Shown here piece after piece: positions 18,893-41,621 of a stretch of DNA of 64,000 bases. The notes below the pieces were generated by a model. It ran no database searches, had not been told where the DNA came from, and worked only from the letters and a program-made list of their open reading frames with translations. Origin of the DNA: Morococcus cerebrosus. Lineage in GTDB: Bacteria; Pseudomonadota; Gammaproteobacteria; Burkholderiales; Neisseriaceae. A program made the translations under genes and the position numbers. The stretch lies in NCBI RefSeq assembly GCF_022749515.1, contig NZ_CP094242.1, positions 682,001 to 746,000 of the forward strand, given 5' to 3'. Numbering within the stretch: the first letter of the stretch is position 1; every line of letters begins with the position of its first letter.

Positions 18893-20122
18893 GAGACCTT
18901 TGCAAAATTCCTTTTCCCCCGACAACCGAAACCCCAAACACAGGTTTTCGGCTGTTTTCGGCTGTTTCCGCCCCCAATCACTCCTTAATTCTACCCAAAT
19001 ACCCCCTTAATCCTCCCCGGATACCCGATAATCAGGCATCCGGGCCGCCTTTTAGGCTGCAACAGGCACACTTAGCCTGTTGGCCGCTTTCAACAGGTTC
19101 AAACACATCGCCTTCAGATGGCTTTGCGCACTCACTTTGAGCAGACCAAAATAGGCTGCCCGGGCGTAGCGGAATTTACGGTGCAGCGTACCGAAGCTTT
19201 GTTCGACCACATAACGGGTCTTCGACAAATATCGGTTGCGTTTGGTTTGCGCTTCCGTCAGCGGACGGTTGCGGCAGGCTTTGCGCATAATGCCGTCTAA
19301 CAACTGATGCTCTTTCAGATGTTGCCGGTTTTCCTTGCTGTCGTAGCCTTTGTCGGCATAGACGGTCGTACCTTCGGCAATGCCTTCCAACAAAGGGGAC
19401 AGATGGTTGCACTCATGGGTATTGGCAGGAGTGATGTGCAGTTTCTCGATATAGCCTTCCTCATCGGTACGGGTATGTTGTTTGTAACCGAGTTTGTAGA
19501 GGCCGTTTTTCTTTGTCCAACGGGCATCTTTGTCCTTACTCGGTGTGGTTTGGCCGCTGACTTGTCCTTCCTCGTCGACTTCTATGGCCTGACGCTGTTT
19601 GCTGCCGGCGGTCTGAATAATGGTGGCGTCAATGACGGCGGCGGATGCTTTCTCTACTTTTAGGTTTTTTTCGGTCAGTTGGCGGTTAATCAGTTCCAGC
19701 AATTCGGACAGGGTGTCGTCTTGCGCCAGCCAGTTGCGGTAGCGGCATAAGGTGCTGTAATCGGGGATGCTCAGTTCGTCAAAACGGCAAAATAGGTTGA
19801 AATCGATGCGGGTGATGAGACTGTGTTCGAGTTCGGGATCGGAGAGGCTGTGCCATTGTCCGAGCAGGACGGCTTTGAACATGGACAACAGTGGATAGGC
19901 GGGACGGCCGCGGTGGTCTCGAAGGTAACGGGCTCTTTGACGATTCAGGTATTGTTCGATCGGTTGCCAATCAATCACCTGATCCAACTTCAATAATGGG
20001 AAGCGGTCGATGTGTTTGGCGATCATGGCTTGTGCGGTTTGCCGGAAGAAGGTGCTCATGGGAAATCCCCTAAATGTCTTGATGGGAATTTAGGGGATTT
20101 TGGGGAATTTTGCAAAGGTCTC
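18893..20122 (-). mobile_element. IS1106-like insertion sequence (IS5 family)
   Basis: A ~1230-bp element bounded by inverted repeats that start gagacctttgcaaaattcc (left, 18893) and end with the complement at 20122. The same short string agtat lies on both sides, consistent with a 3-5 bp target duplication depending on where the end is drawn. The single transposase reads minus. A hairpin (cccggat...atccggg, 19016-19044) before a T-run terminates it. The element lies between divergent ldh and the factor H binding protein-like gene. Confidence 0.9.
19052..20059 (-). CDS. IS5-family transposase (IS1106 type)
   Basis: A 335-residue DDE transposase. The N-terminal DUF772-like region spans LLKLDQVIDWQPIEQYL to FNLFCRFDELSIPDYSTLCRYRNWL. 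The catalytic residues are in AAVIDATII, TVYADKGYDSKENR and the late glutamate of RYVVEQSFGTLHRKFRYARA. The frame is uninterrupted, so the enzyme may be functional. It closely resembles the neisserial IS1106 transposases in overall layout. Confidence 0.93.
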   Translation of the reverse strand: MSTFFRQTAQAMIAKHIDRFPLLKLDQVIDWQPIEQYLNRQRARYLRDHRGRPAYPLLSMFKAVLLGQWHSLSDPELEHSLITRIDFNLFCRFDELSIPDYSTLCRYRNWLAQDDTLSELLELINRQLTEKNLKVEKASAAVIDATIIQTAGSKQRQAIEVDEEGQVSGQTTPSKDKDARWTKKNGLYKLGYKQHTRTDEEGYIEKLHITPANTHECNHLSPLLEGIAEGTTVYADKGYDSKENRQHLKEHQLLDGIMRKACRNRPLTEAQTKRNRYLSKTRYVVEQSFGTLHRKFRYARAAYFGLLKVSAQSHLKAMCLNLLKAANRLSVPVAA

Positions 20123-20134
20123 AGTATATTTATT

Positions 20135-20148
20135 TTGATTTAAGTCAT
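20135..20148 (+). promoter_or_regulatory. FNR-like half-palindrome upstream of fHbp-like gene
   Basis: TTGAT-TTAA-GTCAT matches the left half of an FNR box (TTGAT-N4-ATCAA) fully and the right half only partly. It lies 13 bp inside the unique DNA after the insertion sequence and 134 bp before the start. Meningococcal fHbp is known to be FNR-controlled; here this is only a weak sequence hint. Confidence 0.25.
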
Positions 20149-20281
20149 GAATATCATCATAAAACCGTTATATTATAACTTACGGAGTGTATCCGAAGAT
20201 TTGGACGGATTTTGTTTGCAGACATTGCCGCCGAAATACGGAAGCACACTAGTCATGAATCATGATAATGAAAGGAAACGA

Positions 20282-21076
20282 ATGAAAGCGAAATCTTTAT
20301 TGGCGGTTTTGGCTGCCACCTGCATTTTGTCCGCTTGCAGCAGCGCTGGCAGCAGTTTGGCGGACGGACTGACCAAGCCGTTTGATCCTAATGCAAAAGA
20401 TTGGAAGCAACTGACTGTTTCCGAATCTGTTCCCGACGGCGGCGTACTGGAGTTGACCGACAGGGGCGGTAAAACCCAAACCCTGAAAAAAGGAGGGGTT
20501 TTGGATACGGGTTATCTGAAAAACGACCGTGTTTCCGATTTTGACTATGTGAAAAAAATCAATGTAAACGGACAACTTATCGAATTGGAGCGCGGTGATT
20601 TCTTGGTGTATAAACAAAACCATTCCATCGTTGCCGCCACTTTGGCAAAGCAGAAAACCAATCCGGCAGATGGGGCGCGTTCCGAGGCATTCGATTTTCA
20701 TGTTAACGAAATTCAGGGGCAGGACATTGCTTTCGGTAATCTGCCTAAATTGGGGCAAATAAACTACAAAGGTATCGCGTTCAACGGCGACGACCGCAGC
20801 GGGCGTTTATCTTATACGGTTGATTTTGAGAAGAAACAAGGTAGCGGAAGCATCAGCGGAATGCATAGCGGCTATAACGTCGAATTGGCGAAAACCGACA
20901 TCCAAGCCATGGGCAACGGCTCAGGCTTGAGCGGCAAAGCCATGAAGGACGGTGTGGAAAAAGGCAGTTACGAGCTGAAGCTTTTCGGTAGTAAAGCCGA
21001 AGAAATTGCCGGTAAGGCTAAAATCAACGACGGGGGTAAAACTCAGGAAATCGGTTTGGCCGGTAAGAAAGAGTAG
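20282..21076 (+). CDS. Factor H binding protein-like surface lipoprotein
   Basis: A 264-residue lipoprotein. The start is the ATG at 20282 (MKAKSLLAVLAATC), with AAAGGAAA upstream; an in-frame extension to 20147 lacks a signal peptide. Lipobox ILSAC puts the lipidated cysteine at residue 19. The body follows meningococcal fHbp (GNA1870/LP2086) along its length: LKNDRVSDFDYVKKINVNGQ, LERGDFLVYKQNHS, the INYKGIAFNGDD motif, LSYTVDFEKKQGSGSI and the end EKGSYELKLFGSKAEEIAGK then IGLAGKK. In meningococcus this protein recruits complement factor H to the surface. Whether this homologue binds factor H cannot be read from sequence. An IS1106-like element ends 160 bp upstream. Confidence 0.85.
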   Translation: MKAKSLLAVLAATCILSACSSAGSSLADGLTKPFDPNAKDWKQLTVSESVPDGGVLELTDRGGKTQTLKKGGVLDTGYLKNDRVSDFDYVKKINVNGQLIELERGDFLVYKQNHSIVAATLAKQKTNPADGARSEAFDFHVNEIQGQDIAFGNLPKLGQINYKGIAFNGDDRSGRLSYTVDFEKKQGSGSISGMHSGYNVELAKTDIQAMGNGSGLSGKAMKDGVEKGSYELKLFGSKAEEIAGKAKINDGGKTQEIGLAGKKE

Positions 21077-21102
21077 GGCGGGACAATCCTCAGCCTGACG
21101 GA

Positions 21103-21153
21103 TAAGGTCGTCTGAAACCTTTATTTTAGATAAAAGGTTTCAGACGACCTTTT
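21103..21153 (+). terminator. DUS-pair hairpin terminator after fHbp-like gene
   Basis: Facing uptake sequences with an extended stem (aaaccttta/taaaaggttt) and a strong T-run, 26 bp after the stop. Confidence 0.85.
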
Positions 21154-21215
21154 TGTATCGGCAATTTGGAAAATATAGCTAAATTACTTTATTTGCGATA
21201 CGCAACTTACCGGGT

Positions 21216-21258
21216 ATCGTCATTCCCGCCCTCGCGTAGGCGGGGGCGGGAATGACGG
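21216..21258. repeat. dRS3-like inverted repeat (gtcattcccgc...gcgggaatgac)
   Basis: A neisserial-type short palindrome: the outer arms cgtcattcccgcc and ggcgggaatgacg enclose a GC-rich core. It resembles a dRS3 (ATTCCC-N8-GGGAAT) with an enlarged spacer. It is intergenic, between the fHbp-like gene and the DUF1853 gene. Confidence 0.5.
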
Positions 21259-21329
21259 AATTTGATGATATGTTGTATTTAAAGTTAAGTATGTTTGCTA
21301 TATGGTTTGTAGGTGTGGATGCTTTGGAC

Positions 21330-22181
21330 TCAAGCAACTTTCATGATGCGTTCGATTTCATGCCAAAAGCCGTCGGGGCGCAATTCGAGTTTGGCGATTA
21401 AGCCGCTTTCGATTTGGCGGACGTCTCGGTCGGACAGGGTTTGCGCCTCGGCGACACGGGCGGGGGCAAGGTATGCCATGCGGTCGATGAGGTGGTAGTG
21501 TGCGTCCTCTGTGGTTGGATATGCCGACCAGTCTCGGATAAAGACGCCGCGCCAGCAGTATGGGTTTAACGGGGCTTCGGCGGAATCTGCGCCGACGGGG
21601 AAAAAGCCGATGCCGCGTATGATTGAGGCGGGTTGTGGCGCGTCGGGGAGGCGGTTTTGCCGCAGGGTTTCGCTGCCTTCGGGGGATTGAAGCAGGGCGA
21701 GTTGACGGGGCAGTTTGGCGGCTTTGGCGGCGAGGGTGTCTTTGGCATTGAGTCCACGCATCTCTGCGGATTTGCCGCTGTCGCTGCCGTAATATTTGCA
21801 GGTCAGTTCGATGTGGTAGGGTTTGCCGTTGATGGAGGCGATGAAATCGGCGGCGCCTTGCGTGAGGTCGTCTGAAAACACGGGCAGGTTATAGGCGTGC
21901 AATTCGGTATGCGGCGCGTGGGTGAACCAAAATGCGAGCAGGCGTTCGGCGTAGATGCCGAGTCGGTTGCCGAAGGGGGCGTGTTCGGCGAGATAGTCGT
22001 TGAGCGGGGCGGGATTACCGTCCAAATCCAAAAGATAGCGGAAGCCGCGTTCGCCCAACAGTTCGCGCACGCTCAGTTCACAGCCGCTTTGCCAAAGCGG
22101 CGGAGCGGTCAGCAGGGCGGCGAGGTCGCGGACGGTCGGGGTGGTGAGTTTCCACCATAGGGCATCTAGGGCGTAGTTCAT
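21330..22181 (-). CDS. DUF1853 family protein
   Basis: A 283-residue cytosolic protein resembling the DUF1853 family, of unknown function. The N-terminal part (residues 1-80) is helical. The middle contains GAADFIASINGKPYHIELTCKYY (read in two parts), in which a D...(I)E-x-x-C-K arrangement is reminiscent of a PD-(D/E)XK nuclease core; this is my inference. An uptake sequence in frame encodes VFSDDLTQG. No signal peptide. It is convergent with the fHbp-like gene and just downstream of trmJ on the same strand. Confidence 0.75.
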   Translation of the reverse strand: MNYALDALWWKLTTPTVRDLAALLTAPPLWQSGCELSVRELLGERGFRYLLDLDGNPAPLNDYLAEHAPFGNRLGIYAERLLAFWFTHAPHTELHAYNLPVFSDDLTQGAADFIASINGKPYHIELTCKYYGSDSGKSAEMRGLNAKDTLAAKAAKLPRQLALLQSPEGSETLRQNRLPDAPQPASIIRGIGFFPVGADSAEAPLNPYCWRGVFIRDWSAYPTTEDAHYHLIDRMAYLAPARVAEAQTLSDRDVRQIESGLIAKLELRPDGFWHEIERIMKVA

Positions 22182-24063: not shown

Positions 24064-24260
24064 GCTCGTTTTTAATACGGTGTCGTGATTTAGCAATAGT
24101 AGGAATATCATCCATGTTACTTTCAGGAGCAGATAACTACCTTTTATCGCAATCTGAAAACAGGGATTCCGATTAATGATAATATGCTCAAAGAATTGAT
24201 TTGCAACAGGCAACCCCTATGCCAATCTGATAAATGACGAACCGTATTGTTGTGAATAAT

Positions 24261-25535
24261 ATGAAGAAAAAATCTTTTTTGAATCGTCCCAAGACATCCG
24301 TTTTCCGCACCGGACAAATTGCTGCCGCGGTGTGCGCGGCAGTATGCGCGGCAACGGCGCAGGCTTATCCTTTGCAGGCTATTTTAAGGGATGCCATGGT
24401 GTCCGACCCGATTGTGAAGGAAGCGAAAGCAACCGAAGATTCGGCCAAAAGTACGACGAAGGCGACCCGTGCGCGCCATTATCCCGTGTTGACGCTGACG
24501 GGTACCAAAGTTTTGGCGCAGAAAAACAAATATTCCAGCAACGATATGAATGACGGTGTCGGCATACGCGGAACTTTGAATGTATATTCATGGGGCGCCA
24601 TCAATGCGGCGGTGCGGCGCGATAAAAACAGAGAGCAATACTACCATCATCGTTATTTCGAAAATCAGGAACGTCTGGGCAGCGACATTGGCAAACTCTA
24701 TTTGACCGCATTGCGCGCGAAAGAAATCCTGCGTATCAACCGTCAGAGCTTGGTCCGACACAATAATCTTCTGAAAGATTTGAATATTATCGTGAAATAC
24801 GATAGCGGCCGCCGTTCCGAACTCATTGAAGCGCGTGCGCGCCTGTTGCAGGTCGAATCATCCATCGCGCAACAACAACGCACGATGGAATTGGCGTTGA
24901 GCCGTTTGTCCCGCTACACTGGACGGCAGTTGACGGCAGAGGATTTGGAAGATCCGTTTGCCAACGACAGCGCGGAATCATTGGTCCGCCGTTTCAAAAC
25001 AGCCGATAACAATACCAATCCTTCCTATCGGGCGCAGGTGGCAGAACGCGACAGCGTGAAGGCAGATTTGGACGTTTCCAAAGCAGAACGCCTGCCCGCC
25101 GTGAATCTGGAAGGTAATGCGAACCGCGACAACAGACAGCTTTATTTAAATGTGGCATGGAATGTCTTAGATGTTGCCGCGCGCCATAATGTGCAGAAAA
25201 ATGCCGATGCCCTGATTGCCGCCGAATCGAAATCCGAGCAGATTATGCGCGACATCACCGAAAAAACCCAAACCGCCGAAATCGACATGCGCGAGAGCGA
25301 ACGCCGTGCTGATATTGCCGCGCAACATATTGCCGCTCAAAAAGACGTGGTTAAAACTTACGAGCTGCAATTCAAAATCGCCCGCCGCACGCTGACCGAC
25401 GTTTTGGGCGCATACAACGAATTGTCCAGCATTGAGCAGGAAAACATTTCGGCGCGCAACGACTTCCGCGATGCCGCGTTGGATTATCTGGCTGCGCAGG
25501 CGCAGATGGCGAATTGGGCAGGCTTGAAGCAATAA
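24261..25535 (+). CDS. TolC-family outer membrane protein of a type I secretion system
   Basis: A 424-residue outer-membrane channel of the TolC/LapE type. A signal peptide spans the Ala-rich stretch ending ...AATAQAYP. Internal repeats typical of TolC follow: an early block near VSDPIVKEAKATEDSAKS and a later block near QVAERDSVKADLDVSKAERLPAVNLEG. Coiled-coil segments give the alpha-barrel. The start used is the ATG at 24261 (MKKKSFLN); an in-frame ATG at 24234 is possible, and neither has a strong ribosome site. It heads a three-gene unit with the ABC exporter and the adaptor (25.6-29.1 kb), giving all three parts of a type I exporter. Confidence 0.9.
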   Translation: MKKKSFLNRPKTSVFRTGQIAAAVCAAVCAATAQAYPLQAILRDAMVSDPIVKEAKATEDSAKSTTKATRARHYPVLTLTGTKVLAQKNKYSSNDMNDGVGIRGTLNVYSWGAINAAVRRDKNREQYYHHRYFENQERLGSDIGKLYLTALRAKEILRINRQSLVRHNNLLKDLNIIVKYDSGRRSELIEARARLLQVESSIAQQQRTMELALSRLSRYTGRQLTAEDLEDPFANDSAESLVRRFKTADNNTNPSYRAQVAERDSVKADLDVSKAERLPAVNLEGNANRDNRQLYLNVAWNVLDVAARHNVQKNADALIAAESKSEQIMRDITEKTQTAEIDMRESERRADIAAQHIAAQKDVVKTYELQFKIARRTLTDVLGAYNELSSIEQENISARNDFRDAALDYLAAQAQMANWAGLKQ

Positions 25536-25574
25536 CATAAAATCTTAACATCATTACTCATTACGCGAATTATC

Positions 25575-27758
25575 ATGAAAGCAATCATTGAACATATTGT
25601 GTTGGTTACCCGTCTCTTAGGGGCGCCTGTGTCAGAAGCCGCGCTGACGGCAGAGGTGGTGCGGGATAAAAAACTCAATGTCAACTATCATTCCCTCGTT
25701 GAAGTCTTACGCAGCCACGGCTTCGAAAACACATTGTCCAAGCGCAATCTGGAAGACATTCCATCGCTTGCCGTTCCTGTAATGATCATTCTTCACAACG
25801 AAGAAGCAGCCGTCATTACCAATATCGAAGGTTCGGGTCGAAACAGAAAATATCATATCCGTCAGGTAGATGGCTTGGAGCAGCAGCTTGATCATGACCA
25901 GCTTTCCGGTCTGTATCTGGGTTACTGCTGGTTTATCAAGCCCAAAATGGCGGCGGACACGCGTTCCGAACTGCCTGAATACCACCTCCCCAAAGCATGG
26001 TTTTGGAAAGTCATTTGGCGTTTCCGCAGCTATTACTATCAAGTGATTTTGGCGACCGTCATCATCAACTTCCTCGCCTTGGTCAGCTCGTTGTATGTCA
26101 TGAACGTTTACGACCGCGTCATTCCCAACCAAGCCTATGAAACCCTGTGGGTTTTGAGTATTGGCGTTGTCCTCGCCATTTTGTTCGAATTTGCCGCCAA
26201 GATGATACGCGGCCATTTGACCGACATCGCCGGTAAAAAGGCCGACCTGATTATCAGCTCCGCCTTGTTCCGCCGCGTGATGGCATTGCGTCTCGCCGAC
26301 CGTCCCGCTTCTTCCGGTTCATACGCCAACAACCTGCGCGAATTTGAATCCGTACGCGAATTCATGACCAGCGCGAGCCTGTTGACTTTGGTGGACTTGC
26401 CATTCCTGTTGCTGTTTATCTTTGTTATTTCGATAGTCGGCGGCAAATTGGCTTTGGTTCCTTTGGCGATTATTCCGATTGTCGTCATTGTCGGCTTCAT
26501 CGTCCAACGCCCCTTGTCGCGCCACATTAACGAATCCATGAAAGAAAGCTCGCAACGTTCAGGCCTTGCCGTAGAAGCCATTGAAGGCATCGAAACCCTG
26601 AAAACCAACAATGCGACTTCATGGGCGCAACAACGCTGGGATGAATACACCGCCAAAACCTCCGCTTCATCCATCAAAGTAAAAGATACCAGCAACTTCA
26701 TGGTCAACTTCGCCGTTGCCATGCAGCAGCTCAATACTGTCTTTTTGGTCGTTGTCGGTACCTATCTGATTCATGCCGACAACCATGCGGAACGGATTAC
26801 CATGGGTGCGCTGATTGCCTCCGTCATCCTGTCCGGCCGCGCGTTGGCGCCGTTGGCCCAAGTTGCCGGCCTTGCTACCCGCTTCCAACAGGCGAAGCTA
26901 GCGTTAAGAGGCGTGAACGACATTGTTTCCCGTCCGATCGAACGCAGCCCCGAACGCAAATACATTACTTTGGACAACGTTCAAGGCAATATCGCCTTTG
27001 AAAACGTAACGTTCAAATACAAAAACGAAAGTAACAACGCAGTTGACGAGTTGCGCATCAACATCCGACCCGGTGAAAAAGTCGGTATCCTCGGACGTAT
27101 CGGCAGCGGTAAAAGTACCATGCTGAAGCTGGCGAGCGGTCTATACGACACCGAAAAAGGCAACGTAACCCTCGACGGCGTCGATATGCGCCAACTTGAT
27201 CCGAATTTCCTGCGTAACCAAGTCCTCCTGTTCAGCCAATCTCCACGCCTTTTCTTGGGTACATTGCGCGAAAACATGGACTTGGCGCGTACCGACAGCT
27301 ATTCGACCGACCAAGACCTGCTGACCGCACTCAAACGTTTCGGTTTGGACCAAATCATCCGCAACCACCCGAGAGGCTTGGATATGCCTTTGGGTGAAGA
27401 CGGCTTGGGTCTGTCCGGCGGTCAAAAACAAATCATCGCCCTCGCACGCATGACGTTGCGCGACCCCAAAGTTGTCCTTTTGGACGAGCCGACAACCAGC
27501 CTCGACCAAGGTACAGAACGCATGGCATTGAACGCGATTGCCCACTGGGGACGCAACCGCACCATGCTCTTGGTCACCCACCGTCCGCAAGTGCTGCAAA
27601 TCGTTAACCGCATCATCGTAATGGAAAACGGCAAAGTCGTTATGGACGGCCCGCGCGATTTAGTGTTGCAAAAACTGATGCAAAACGAGCAAAACAAAGT
27701 CAAAGCAGCACAACAAGCGCAGGAAAACCAACGTCCCGGCGAAGCGGCGCAAGCATGA
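25575..27758 (+). CDS. Type I secretion ABC transporter, HlyB/LapB-like
   Basis: A 727-residue fused permease-ATPase. The N-terminal ~130 residues are a C39-peptidase-like domain; I see no catalytic cysteine motif, so it should act as a substrate-docking domain as in HlyB and LapB. Six transmembrane helices follow (roughly residues 150-430). The ATPase domain has Walker A GRIGSGKST near residue 508, the signature LSGGQKQ and Walker B KVVLLDEPTTSLD. It lies 40 bp after the TolC-like gene. Exporters of this class move RTX proteins; the RTX gene at 39.6-41.6 kb is a plausible substrate. Confidence 0.93.
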   Translation: MKAIIEHIVLVTRLLGAPVSEAALTAEVVRDKKLNVNYHSLVEVLRSHGFENTLSKRNLEDIPSLAVPVMIILHNEEAAVITNIEGSGRNRKYHIRQVDGLEQQLDHDQLSGLYLGYCWFIKPKMAADTRSELPEYHLPKAWFWKVIWRFRSYYYQVILATVIINFLALVSSLYVMNVYDRVIPNQAYETLWVLSIGVVLAILFEFAAKMIRGHLTDIAGKKADLIISSALFRRVMALRLADRPASSGSYANNLREFESVREFMTSASLLTLVDLPFLLLFIFVISIVGGKLALVPLAIIPIVVIVGFIVQRPLSRHINESMKESSQRSGLAVEAIEGIETLKTNNATSWAQQRWDEYTAKTSASSIKVKDTSNFMVNFAVAMQQLNTVFLVVVGTYLIHADNHAERITMGALIASVILSGRALAPLAQVAGLATRFQQAKLALRGVNDIVSRPIERSPERKYITLDNVQGNIAFENVTFKYKNESNNAVDELRINIRPGEKVGILGRIGSGKSTMLKLASGLYDTEKGNVTLDGVDMRQLDPNFLRNQVLLFSQSPRLFLGTLRENMDLARTDSYSTDQDLLTALKRFGLDQIIRNHPRGLDMPLGEDGLGLSGGQKQIIALARMTLRDPKVVLLDEPTTSLDQGTERMALNAIAHWGRNRTMLLVTHRPQVLQIVNRIIVMENGKVVMDGPRDLVLQKLMQNEQNKVKAAQQAQENQRPGEAAQA

Positions 27759-27769
27759 CGAAAAGGGAA

Positions 27770-27812
27770 AAGGTCGTCTGAAAACACAAGCAGAAAGCGT
27801 TTCAGACGACCT
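27770..27812 (+). repeat. DUS-pair hairpin inside the type I secretion unit
   Basis: Facing uptake sequences (aaaggtcgtctgaaaac and the complement) lie between the ABC exporter and the adaptor gene. It may attenuate transcription or stabilise the mRNA; the genes still look like one functional unit. Confidence 0.7.
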
Positions 27813-27850
27813 CTTTGAAAACAACAAACAGATACCGAAGATTCATCATT

Positions 27851-29077
27851 ATGAGCGAAAACAACGTTAAATCCAAAGACCTGCATCTCATTAACGATTT
27901 GAATGCAGCCTTACAAAAAGAAAAACATAGCGGCCAATTTTGGGTCATCATCCTGTTTTTCCTGCTGCTCGTCGTCTTTGTCGTATGGGCATACAACAGC
28001 ACCGTCGAAGAAGTAACCCGCGGCAACGGCAACGTTATCCCCAGCAGCCGCGAACAAGTCATCCAAAGCCTGGACGCCGGTGTCATTACCCAAATGATGG
28101 TTAAAGAAGGCGATTTGGTCGAAAAAGACCAAATCCTGCTGAAGCTCGACGATACGCGCAGCCTTGCTGTATTGCGCGAGAGCGAAGCCAAAGTCCAAAA
28201 CCTCGAGGCCACCATCGCCCGCCTGAAAGCCGAAGCTTACGGCGGCAAACTCACGTTCCCCAACAGCGTCAGCCCCGAACTCCGCCGCCGCGAAACTGCC
28301 GCATATAACGCCCGCCGCCAAGCCATGACCGATGCCGTACAAAGCCTGGTACAAAGTAAAGCGGCGCTTGACCGCGAAATTGCCATTACTGCACCTATGG
28401 TGGCACAAGGTGTTATGTCCGAAGTCGAACTCCTTAAAATGCGCCGCGAATCCAGCGATCTGACCCTGCAAATTGCTGAACGCCGCAACCGTTACAGAAC
28501 AGATGCCAACAACGAACTTGTGCAATCCGAGTCCGAGCTGGCGCAATCCAAAGAAAACATGGCAATGCGCGCCGACCCGGTTGACCGCTCCCAAATCCGC
28601 TCCCCCATGCGCGGCATCGTCAAAAACATCAAAATCAATACCATTGGCGGCGTAGTCAACCCGGGCGAAGAAATCATGCAAATCGTCCCTGTTGATGACA
28701 AACTCCTTGTCGAAGCCTATATCCGTCCGCAAGACATCGCCTTCGTCCGCGCAGGACAGCCTGCACTGGTCAAAGTCAGCGCATATGACTACTCCATCTA
28801 TGGCGGATTGGAAGGCAAAGTTACCCTTGTCGGCGCAGATACCGTCAGCAACTCCATGCAAAGCCGTGCCAACGATCTGAAGCTCGACCCCAACCAAGTT
28901 TACTACCGAGTCATCGTCCAAACTGAGAACAACGCCCTGAAAGACAAAAACGGTAAAGACATGCCGATTATTCCGGGCATGGTTGCCACAGTGGACATTA
29001 AAACCGGCGAAAAAACCATCTTCCAATACCTGATCAAACCGATTACCCGTATGAAGCAGGCATTGAGCGAGCGTTAA
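27851..29077 (+). CDS. Type I secretion membrane fusion protein, HlyD family
   Basis: A 408-residue periplasmic adaptor. The start is the ATG at 27851 (MSENNVKSKD); the upstream in-frame start at 27815 is within the DUS region. A single N-terminal transmembrane helix (FWVIILFFLLLVVFVVWAY, about residues 29-47) is followed by a lipoyl half (VIQSLDAGVITQMMVKEGDLV), a long coiled-coil hairpin and the closing lipoyl half (SPMRGIVKNIKINTIGGVV). It ends with the beta-barrel domain. It bridges the ABC exporter and the TolC-like channel encoded just upstream. Confidence 0.93.
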   Translation: MSENNVKSKDLHLINDLNAALQKEKHSGQFWVIILFFLLLVVFVVWAYNSTVEEVTRGNGNVIPSSREQVIQSLDAGVITQMMVKEGDLVEKDQILLKLDDTRSLAVLRESEAKVQNLEATIARLKAEAYGGKLTFPNSVSPELRRRETAAYNARRQAMTDAVQSLVQSKAALDREIAITAPMVAQGVMSEVELLKMRRESSDLTLQIAERRNRYRTDANNELVQSESELAQSKENMAMRADPVDRSQIRSPMRGIVKNIKINTIGGVVNPGEEIMQIVPVDDKLLVEAYIRPQDIAFVRAGQPALVKVSAYDYSIYGGLEGKVTLVGADTVSNSMQSRANDLKLDPNQVYYRVIVQTENNALKDKNGKDMPIIPGMVATVDIKTGEKTIFQYLIKPITRMKQALSER

Positions 29078-39569: not shown

Positions 39570-41621
39570 TTAGCCGATGATATTGGAAGCGCTCAACCAA
39601 GCTGCCTGACTGTCGTCAAATTTGGCGAACACGGTATTGCTGCTTGCACCTGCCGCTCGGTAGGCGAGGGTTTGAGATACAGAGTCGAAGACGAGGTAAG
39701 AACGTCCGGTGTCGTAATAATAAGGATTTTTGACGAACAGTTCCGACCAGCTCACATTTGCCTCGCTGCCGCTTAGCAGGGAACGCATACCGGACAGATC
39801 AAGCTTGTCCATATAAGGGTTGAAGTCGGTAATACGATCTATGCTGCCGTCGCGGATGTCTGAGGCGGAGAAAGCGACGGTATCTTTACCTGCACCTGTA
39901 ACGATGGTATCGCTGCCCGAACCGCCTGTGAGGTAGTCGTTGCCGTCGCCGCCGTGGAGGTAATCGATCCCGTCTCCTCCATTCAGCCTGTCATCTCCGT
40001 CGCCGCCGTAGAGATAGTCGTTCCCGCTGCCGCCCGACAACAGGTCGTCTCCACTCATGCCGTAAAGGGTATCATTGCCACCATCCCCGTTTAATTGGTT
40101 GTGGCCGCTGTTGCCGGTAATGGTATTGTCGCCGTAATTGCCGATGCCGAAAGTGTTGTTGCTGCCGGTCAGGGTCAGGTGTTCGACGTAGGTTGGGATT
40201 GTGTAGGAAACACTACTATATATCGTATCGACACCTTCTCCCCACCACTCAGTAACTGTATCTTTGACATTATCTACATGGTAGATATCATTCCCGTACC
40301 CACCAGACATGGTATCTGCACCGCTGCCTCCGTCCAAAGTATCATTGCCACTGCCACCATCAAGCAGGTCGTTACCTTCGTCGCCGCGAAGAATGTCGTC
40401 TCCGTTACCGCCGTATAGGAAATCTCTATCATCCCCTCCCATCAGCAGGTCGTTGCCTTCGTTGCCGTATAGCGTATCGCTGCCGCGTCCTCCGCTTAAT
40501 CGGTTATTGCCGCTGTTTCCCGTCAGAATATTATCGGCGTTGTTGCCGAATGCGAAGGTATTGTCGTTGCCTGTTAGCGTTAGGTTTTCAACGTGGGTTG
40601 GCGCGGTATAGGTAACACTGCTGTAAATCGTGTCGATACCGCCGTTCATTTCCTCAATAACCGTATCGTTCACATTATCAACATGATAGACATCATTTCC
40701 CAAGCCGCCGGCCATAGTGTCTGCACCGCTGCCGCCGTCTAAAGTATCGTTGCCATAGCCTCCGTCGAGCAGGTCGTTGCCTGCATCGCCGCGCAGGATG
40801 TCATCACCTTGTCCGCCGTAAAGTTCGTCGCGATCATCACCACCCATTAATAGGTCGTTACCTTCCATGCCATAGAGCGTGTCGCTACCTCGCCCGCCAC
40901 TCAAGCGATTGTTGCCGCTGTTGCCGATAAGGCTGTTATCGGCATTGTTGCCAAAGCCGAAGATATTGTCTTTACCTTCTAAAATCAGTTTTTCAACGTG
41001 GGTTGGCGCGGTATAGGTAACACTGCTGTATATCGTATCGTAGCCTGCATCTGCGTCTTCGACGACTGTATCTTTTATATTATCTACATAGAAAGTATCG
41101 TTTCCCTTTCCTCCGAGCATGGTGTCCATACCCGTACCGCCATATAAGATATCTTCCCCGTCATGCCCAGATAGAAAATCGTTTCCGCTTCCACCATTCA
41201 GAACGTCGTTGCCGCCTAGTCCGCCAAGTCGGTCATCACCATCGTCGCCCCATAGATAATCGTTGCCATTTCCGCCAAGCATCAGATCATTGCCGCCTTT
41301 GCCATATAGACGGTTGCCGTTGGAATTGCCCGATATAACATTGTCTGCATCATTGCCGATACCTAACATACTGTTGCCCTGCAACTTCAGATCTTCGACA
41401 TGTTCCGGTAAGGTAAAGTCGGTGCTGCTATAGATTAGATCGCGGCCTTCGTTTTCACGCTCGATGATGGTATCGCCCGCATTTTTACTGTAGTAAGTAT
41501 CGTTCCCTAAACCACCGTAGAATATGGTATGTCCCGTACTACCATATAAAGTATCATTACGGTCCGTACCGGTAATAACGACGGATTGGTTGTTTTTTAA
41601 AGAAAGCAATGTATCAGCCAT
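39570..41621 (-). CDS. RTX calcium-binding beta-roll protein of four ~135-residue units
   Basis: A 683-residue protein built almost wholly of GGxGxDxLx nonapeptides. A higher-order repeat is plain: the block D-x-Y-x-V-D-N-x-x-D-T-V recurs at about residues 41, 175, 310 and 445, a period of 134-135 residues. Each unit continues with DTIYSSVxYT...HVExLxLxG, GNxADNxLxGNSGNNRL and then GGxGNDxLxGG runs. The last ~100 residues (SIDRITDFNPYMDKLDLSG to the C-terminus) look like a type I secretion signal region. There is no N-terminal signal peptide and no catalytic domain. The ATG at 41621 has AGGAG upstream. Export by the type I system at 24-29 kb is likely but not shown. Confidence 0.9.
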   Translation of the reverse strand: MADTLLSLKNNQSVVITGTDRNDTLYGSTGHTIFYGGLGNDTYYSKNAGDTIIERENEGRDLIYSSTDFTLPEHVEDLKLQGNSMLGIGNDADNVISGNSNGNRLYGKGGNDLMLGGNGNDYLWGDDGDDRLGGLGGNDVLNGGSGNDFLSGHDGEDILYGGTGMDTMLGGKGNDTFYVDNIKDTVVEDADAGYDTIYSSVTYTAPTHVEKLILEGKDNIFGFGNNADNSLIGNSGNNRLSGGRGSDTLYGMEGNDLLMGGDDRDELYGGQGDDILRGDAGNDLLDGGYGNDTLDGGSGADTMAGGLGNDVYHVDNVNDTVIEEMNGGIDTIYSSVTYTAPTHVENLTLTGNDNTFAFGNNADNILTGNSGNNRLSGGRGSDTLYGNEGNDLLMGGDDRDFLYGGNGDDILRGDEGNDLLDGGSGNDTLDGGSGADTMSGGYGNDIYHVDNVKDTVTEWWGEGVDTIYSSVSYTIPTYVEHLTLTGSNNTFGIGNYGDNTITGNSGHNQLNGDGGNDTLYGMSGDDLLSGGSGNDYLYGGDGDDRLNGGDGIDYLHGGDGNDYLTGGSGSDTIVTGAGKDTVAFSASDIRDGSIDRITDFNPYMDKLDLSGMRSLLSGSEANVSWSELFVKNPYYYDTGRSYLVFDSVSQTLAYRAAGASSNTVFAKFDDSQAAWLSASNIIG

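Follow-up and report, generated by a model that had tools for sequence, protein, structure and literature searches.

The question raised by this locus is how a relative of Neisseria sicca came to carry a factor H binding protein (fHbp) whose nearest named relative sits in the periodontal pathogen Aggregatibacter actinomycetemcomitans (Aa), and what such a protein might do there. The gene lies at 20282-21076 on the forward strand of the window, by which we mean the whole stretch of 64,000 nucleotides analyzed from the genome of Morococcus cerebrosus (contig NZ_CP094242.1, positions 682,001 to 746,000), an organism referred to below as the window Neisseria. fHbp is a component of two licensed meningococcal B vaccines, and its copies in commensals are relevant to the question whether vaccination upsets the resident flora. 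The explanation that best accounts for the data as a whole, to which we give a probability of roughly 0.6, is that of a surface lipoprotein, lipid-anchored and of the fHbp family, whose sub-lineage is common to the window Neisseria and A. actinomycetemcomitans, with a probable history of transfer and a possible role toward complement. An earlier model-made note on the letters and translations (the sequence-only reading) had proposed an fHbp-like lipoprotein here, and is partly supported by the analysis below.

That the gene encodes a member of the fHbp family is virtually certain. The open reading frame (ORF) is uninterrupted, with a ribosome-binding-site-like AAGGAAACG ahead of its ATG; the mechanical ORF start lies upstream at 20147, and the start at 20282 is favored because of the lipobox and the ribosome-binding site. 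With 45 codons open upstream of the likely start, automatic annotation of 20147-21076 could yield a product of 309 aa that lacks a proper signal peptide; the database protein P0001 is 309 aa long. The coding region comprises:

20282..21076, forward strand: gene for the putative fHbp-family surface lipoprotein, 264 aa, with signal peptide 1-18 and lipidated Cys19 predicted from the translation
20282..20338, forward strand: lipoprotein signal peptide with the lipobox LSAC up to Cys19, read from the translation
20738..21019, forward strand: C-terminal barrel (residues 153-246), matched by the Pfam profile FHBP_C

Residues 20-264 resemble meningococcal fHbp (phmmer E 6.6e-51 to the best PDB fHbp chain), a likeness that on this score is far beyond chance. 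The Pfam cut-offs are exceeded for FHBP_N (38.4 vs. 27.6 bits) and FHBP_C (95.1 vs. 28.1 bits), the NCBIfam profile slam_lipo gives 94.3 against a cut-off of 80, and the NCBIfam equivalog factorH_bind is passed narrowly (205.6 vs. 200; a protein of the meningococcal variant 1 type, V1, scores 567.2). Fold alignment finds the two-barrel fHbp fold in the predicted structure. The full-length likeness claimed from the letters is thus borne out by Pfam, NCBIfam, phmmer, and fold in agreement, and all four motifs quoted at the time were found in the translation. An NHBA-like or TbpB-like barrel lipoprotein, which the sequence-only reading had named as the case against itself, shares the barrel and draws on a weak match to TbpB_B_D; this match reaches 24.3 bits against a cut-off of 26, and the fold is no closer to NHBA than to fHbp. 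We rejected this identity, which now seems barely credible.

The position of the protein within the family is less expected. We distinguish four types, V1/pathogen, sicca, subflava, and Aa, the last being a sub-lineage name coined here. The window protein is 77.9% and 76.8% identical to the two Aa proteins, and 78.4% and 76.5% to the metagenome proteins P0003 and P0004 (each from a single metagenome contig); identities are 56.3-57.4% to the sicca type, 53.3-54.4% to the subflava type, and 40.5% to the V1 type. A phylogeny with fHbp variants had been proposed as a check, and in the maximum-likelihood tree of 23 rows the window protein falls with P0003, P0004, and the Aa proteins in an Aa-type group of six (support 99/100), the non-pathogen types standing together on one side (support 100/100). 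Forcing it into the sicca group, which was chosen after the identities were known, costs 52.4 in log-likelihood (p-AU 7.3e-11). Of the first 23 homologous proteins the trees took 9, and L010, L011, and L012 were excluded for their broken frames; the second tree, that of 23 rows, additionally excluded L022, L023, L025, and L095. The subflava-type L013 entered set A2 and the NCBIfam scoring as its matched part, not as the whole ORF.

The genome itself keeps other company. Its nearest relatives by suhB are G026 (97%), G034 (96%), and G031 (94%), with identities over 3.8 kb of 97.1, 97.1, and 94.3%, and all three carry a sicca-type fHbp. The window Neisseria is a relative of N. sicca, and its fHbp is mismatched with its nearest genomes, belonging to a sub-lineage common to A. 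actinomycetemcomitans and not to the sisters. In an N. sicca record (C2010005502, L040) the sicca-type gene adjoins a dnaE-like gene in divergent orientation, a place taken in the window genome by a ribokinase-like ORF (the names sodA, dnaE, suhB, trmJ, rlmB, ldh, ribokinase, and metallopeptidase come from reading translations, not from search). A clean empty site was not found in the sister Neisseria; G026 has its rlmB-ldh side, DUF1853 side, and trmJ at three locations apart from one another. Synonymous divergence is near saturation for the window gene against both the Aa and the sicca type; against the Aa genes pS is 0.74 (saturated) and pN 0.127-0.135, so that dN/dS is unreliable here, and the low pN suggests that selection may be keeping the protein.

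The sequence-only reading further held that this gene widens the family, which is not new: fHbp beyond the meningococcal cluster is already in print (PMC4575117, PMC5500766, PMC7643975), and in 9 of 46 Neisseria genomes, that of the window included, an fHbp of non-pathogen type exceeds the NCBIfam cut-off. Altogether the factorH_bind cut-off is passed in 15 of 83 Neisseriaceae genomes, all 15 among the 46 Neisseria, and any match at E 0.001 is found in 37. These 15 divide into pathogen (6), subflava (5), sicca (3), and Aa type (1, the window genome alone); for G013, G030, and G047 the type was assigned from the score, outside the tree. In these last three genomes the pathogen-type matches come in two pieces, and the G022 gene has no in-frame lipobox (L009-L012, broken frames).

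A scan of named genomes returned seven loci: two of A. actinomycetemcomitans at 77-78% identity, two of sicca type at 55-57%, and three distant ones at 25-35%. Among 140 Pasteurellaceae genomes some barrel match occurs in 60 and a close match in only two (447 bits, 78-79%), the next best reaching 86.9 bits and 38% identity; correspondingly, two of nine Aggregatibacter genomes (G083 and G084, both A. actinomycetemcomitans) have a close copy, which is absent from the other seven. A full-length distant fHbp-like protein (L095, in the Pasteurellaceae genome G198) shows 38% identity over residues 3-263 and stands outside the Aa-type group. Further profile search added just three weaker proteins, P0024-P0026.

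Aa-fHbp appears in a 2015 report and received its name in 2017, its identity to V1 being given as 41% (PMC4575117, PMC5500766). Two of four commensal throat isolates were listed with fHbp in 2020 (PMC7643975), and N. cinerea and N. polysaccharea express it (PMC8265630). A historic panel described in the same paper gave no positives among 15 N. subflava, one N. mucosa, and one N. lactamica, which may reflect a search for meningococcal-type alleles. Within the open-licence literature we found no paper on the Aa type in Neisseria or its transfer, nor, by title and start of abstract (with PMC3630211 and PMC12616744), on Aa-fHbp transfer or uptake words of the neisserial kind (DUS) in Aggregatibacter. 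The placement of the window fHbp, with Aa kinship against its genome relatives, was likewise not found in print in these searches; the family itself was known.

The surroundings of the gene bear on how it came to be shared:

18893..20122, reverse strand: IS5-type element (transposase at 19052-20059) flanked by AGTAT repeats, inserted separately and outside the gene unit
20125..20281, forward strand: 5' leader resembling the Aa-fHbp leader by local alignment
20135..20148, forward strand: FNR-like box TTGATTTAAGTCAT, a consensus match only, with two mismatches to the FNR consensus TTGATNNNNATCAA, 22 nt ahead of a TATTAT hexamer
21105..21150, forward strand: the DNA uptake word AG-mucDUS and its inverted mate, forming a terminator-like hairpin with a T-run; the exact AG-mucDUS lies 28 bases past the stop, with cores at 21107 (+) and 21139 (-)

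The IS5 element was considered as the carrier and rejected, having its own flanking 5-bp repeats and 48 matches listed in the window genome (fragments and the window copy included).

The window leader can be aligned with those of the two Aa genes along some 150 bp, most closely over the first 55, with a score of 31 against shuffle maxima of 19.5 and 24.0 (0/300 each, single-base shuffles), and the first 13 bases of the FNR-like box recur in both Aa leaders. The window belongs, as stated from the letters, to an AG-mucDUS genome (71 exact AG-mucDUS, 5 AG-DUS, 0 AT-DUS), and AG-mucDUS follows the stop codon at 22 bases in L040 and 18 in the other sicca-type record, Neisseria sp. HMSC077D05 (L039). 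The two Aa loci have AGGTGGTCTGAA, which differs from AG-mucDUS by one mismatch, at 26 and 25 bases past the stop; it is the sole match at up to one mismatch within each 16.8-kb Aa locus, and shuffles of the 200 bases past the stop yield such a word in 2/2000 and 0/2000. Between sodA and the fHbp gene, L038 holds a word that differs from AT-DUS and from AG-DUS by a single mismatch, and the word there in L037 has two mismatches. Frye et al. (PMC3630211) assign AG-mucDUS to N. sicca, N. macacae, and one N. mucosa strain as their most frequent dialect, list Hin-USS for A. actinomycetemcomitans, and call exchange between N. meningitidis and H. influenzae rare.

The Aa fHbp gene lies between sodA-like and metallopeptidase-like ORFs, and this site has been shown to be insertion-like: in the sister Aggregatibacter G101, where the gene is absent, 35 bp separate the two flank matches, in G098 the distance is about 17 kb, and in G099, G100, and G104 it is larger; in G102 and G103 the sodA side alone is among the matches listed. 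Across all nine Aggregatibacter genomes there are 89 exact AG-mucDUS (2 to 19 each), against a uniform-base expectation of 2.4 and none in any genome for the reversed control, and many are clustered within a few kb, such as four within 6.4 kb in G083. These AG-mucDUS results raised our confidence that the gene was transferred between families, which we hold to be very probable. Because the leader is shared and an AG-mucDUS-like word lies past the Aa stop, Neisseria DNA probably carried fHbp to Aggregatibacter, a direction we consider likely, the donor being inferred to be a Neisseria of the AG-mucDUS group. As synonymous sites are saturated, the transfer is taken to be old or indirect; recent direct exchange was rejected on these grounds. 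In this view the Aa lineage would have received gene, leader, and 3' hairpin from an AG-mucDUS-group Neisseria, either long ago or via an unsampled donor. Into the window Neisseria itself the gene may have come either by transfer or through loss of other copies. A bolder version, which we think rather unlikely, would have AG-mucDUS-marked Neisseria DNA enter Aggregatibacter repeatedly in the human mouth, one stretch carrying a complete complement-evasion unit (Aa-type fHbp, oxygen-responsive leader, 3' hairpin) whose binding face, unlike that of meningococcal fHbp, captures a complement regulator by other contacts or captures another regulator.

Other stretches of Aggregatibacter DNA are candidate Neisseria islands, marked by their AG-mucDUS clusters (for example G083:C11:63619-70015, G101:C7:36527-48696, and G104:C1:1200932-1213714). 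The roughly 17 kb between the sodA-like and metallopeptidase-like genes of G098, at the same site as Aa fHbp, lie in a 19.5-kb locus (L140, G098:C71:89000-108500) with 7 exact AG-mucDUS (three inverted pairs) and 17 Hin-USS, possibly an insertion hot spot. Its donor was not identified among G000 (the window's own genome), G026, G031, G034, and G045, whose best matches reached 72-74% along some 1 kb; the same part is matched by G101 at 71%.

With regard to expression, the gene would have a promoter of its own, with FNR probably increasing transcription at low oxygen. Sicca-type leaders carry an FNR-like box as well (TTGATTTAAATCAT, one mismatch), and such recurrence across fHbp types is a better argument than any single site. 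Meningococcal fHbp is activated by FNR (PMC8026042), and for the window gene we put FNR control, as read from these boxes, at even odds. A terminator scan of 20060-21340 did not report the hairpin at 21105..21150.

The protein would then be lipidated and put outside, probably by a Slam, and exposure at the surface is likely. Meningococcal fHbp display requires Slam1 (PMC5449769), and Aa-fHbp occurs in vesicles of Aa (PMC4575117) and is displayed at the E. coli surface, from which exposure there without a species-specific machine was argued (PMC5500766). Slam-family genes number four elsewhere in the window genome, none in the window, and one in each Aa genome. Outside the cell the protein might hold a human complement regulator, factor H first, and so limit complement on the mucosa, although this step is weakly inferred. 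The contact check proposed by the sequence-only reading, carried out by sequence alignment, came out with a minority kept: of the ten V1 contact positions named in PMC3486911, L156, E157, and E283 are retained. The loss of V1 contacts lowers the chance of factor H binding and does not exclude it, because V1, V2, and V3 reach similar affinity by different residues on one face, and carry-over between variants is cautioned against (Johnson et al., PMC3486911). Appreciable binding of human factor H by the window protein is, on these residues, possible and somewhat doubtful.

Set beside known systems, the window protein is closest to Aa-fHbp, which shares the sub-lineage, full-length identity of 77-78%, a similar leader with FNR-like box, and AG-mucDUS or a like word 25-28 bases past the stop, and which differs in its bacterial family, in its locus beside a sodA-like gene with Hin-USS nearby, and in having Glu at V1 position 304. 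The sicca-type proteins of L040 and L039 share family, genus, leader box, and AG-mucDUS, and differ in sequence (56-57%) and, for L040, in the divergent dnaE-like neighbor. Meningococcal variants 1-3 are more distant (about 41% to V1), and the window protein lacks their Gly-rich stretch after the lipidated Cys. Gonococcal Ghfp is of the same family and is published as not on the surface (PMC3731240). The Ghfp-like gene L009, so named by resemblance, has no in-frame lipobox.

Several observations weigh against the explanation favored here. The NCBIfam margin is just 5.6 bits, and another member of the group, P0004, misses the cut-off with 179.7; support for the Aa-type group drops to 88/93 once four long-branch rows are in the tree. 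Leaders of other types also align to the window leader, with shuffles reaching their scores in 2/300 (sicca L040), 16/300 (subflava L013), and 36/300 (L039). No exact AG-mucDUS is present at the Aa fHbp locus (on the G084 contig the closest lies 23.5 kb away, and the G083 contig has none), Hin-USS, the uptake word of Aggregatibacter itself, also flanks the Aa gene, and the saturated synonymous sites speak against recent direct transfer. A single FNR-like site is weak, the window having 44 such sites vs. 27.9 in shuffles, and a promoter scan of 20060-21340 gave no sigma-70 match. The remaining V1 contact positions hold 106 P, 145 K, 195 H, 304 K, 311 T, and 313 E, with 272 in an alignment gap; Ghfp, far closer to meningococcal fHbp, binds no factor H (PMC3731240). 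No Slam gene adjoins the window fHbp, and the best Slam of its genome is 34% identical to that of Aa.

The strongest competitor accepts the fold and assigns it a ligand other than factor H, be it another host protein, another complement factor, or none, as in a non-binding scaffold like Ghfp; we place it a little short of even odds. It gains from the few V1 contacts kept, from Lys at 304 where V1 has Glu and V2/V3 have Thr, from Ghfp itself, and from PmSLP-1 of Pasteurella multocida, a Slam-dependent lipoprotein of the same handle-and-eight-stranded-barrel build (compared by description) that binds complement factor I (PMC12080921); it loses from the shared binding face of the three variants and from P106, E283, E313, and G318, which match states named for V2 or V3. 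As to history, the Neisseria copy might instead descend vertically from an old duplication with paralogues differentially kept, only the Aa copy being foreign. The near-saturated divergence to both Aa and sicca types and the common side of the non-pathogen types make the types old, and the FNR-like box is in window and sicca leaders alike; yet the Aa type exceeds the cut-off in one of the 46 Neisseria genomes and none has two types above it, so many losses would be needed, and we find this history rather improbable. Transfer from Aggregatibacter to Neisseria is far less probable still. The window gene is AT-richer than each of six measured neighbors (GC 0.486 vs. 0.515-0.603, insertion sequence excluded) and the Aa type is rare in Neisseria, but sicca-type fHbp genes also lie below the GC of their loci (0.491-0.506 vs. 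0.535-0.542), the AG-mucDUS-like word follows both Aa genes, close copies are absent from 7/9 Aggregatibacter and 138/140 Pasteurellaceae genomes, and no Hin-USS was found in the window.

Probable transfer out of Neisseria, with a possible role toward complement, is the reading we retain, and what it concerns is a real, intact fHbp family member in an unexpected tree position, the surprise being its kinship with a gene of a periodontal pathogen that keeps a worn Neisseria uptake word. It offers a case, open to testing, for the passage of surface lipoproteins from Neisseria into Aggregatibacter despite the different uptake words of the two families. On the origin of meningococcal fHbp, which the sequence-only reading thought the gene might inform, it says less than on exchange between families, and the nearest named homologue, that of Aggregatibacter, had been missed; the four types do form a natural series for dating the rise of factor H binding. 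Cross-reactivity of vaccine antibodies, also raised there, appears unlikely at about 41% identity, because V1 immunization gives no cross-protection even against V2/V3 (PMC3731240).

The window genome has six FHBP_C barrel matches, of which the window gene scores highest. Three others (L002, L005, and L006, at G000:C1:1512183-1512440, 2522775-2523044, and 552572-552880) lie in open frames of 484, 765, and 646 aa with long KAEEA-type repeats ahead of the barrel; the 484-aa protein is NHBA-like, and a Slam-family match starts 729 bases past its barrel. A repeat of about 108 bp at L040:8918-9028 recurs at some 40 places in the window genome, 96-100% identical at most listed places, and is Correia-like in size. 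In the window itself, the AG-mucDUS hairpin is followed by DUF1853, trmJ-like, and suhB-like genes; a repeat at 21173-21302, just 3' of the gene, has scattered matches in sister genomes and holds an ATTCCC...GGGAAT pair resembling the neisserial dRS3. Farther along, reading of translations places TolC-like, ABC-transporter-like, and HlyD-like genes in a row at 24234-29077, and a 683-aa protein with glycine-rich RTX-like repeats at 39570-41621.
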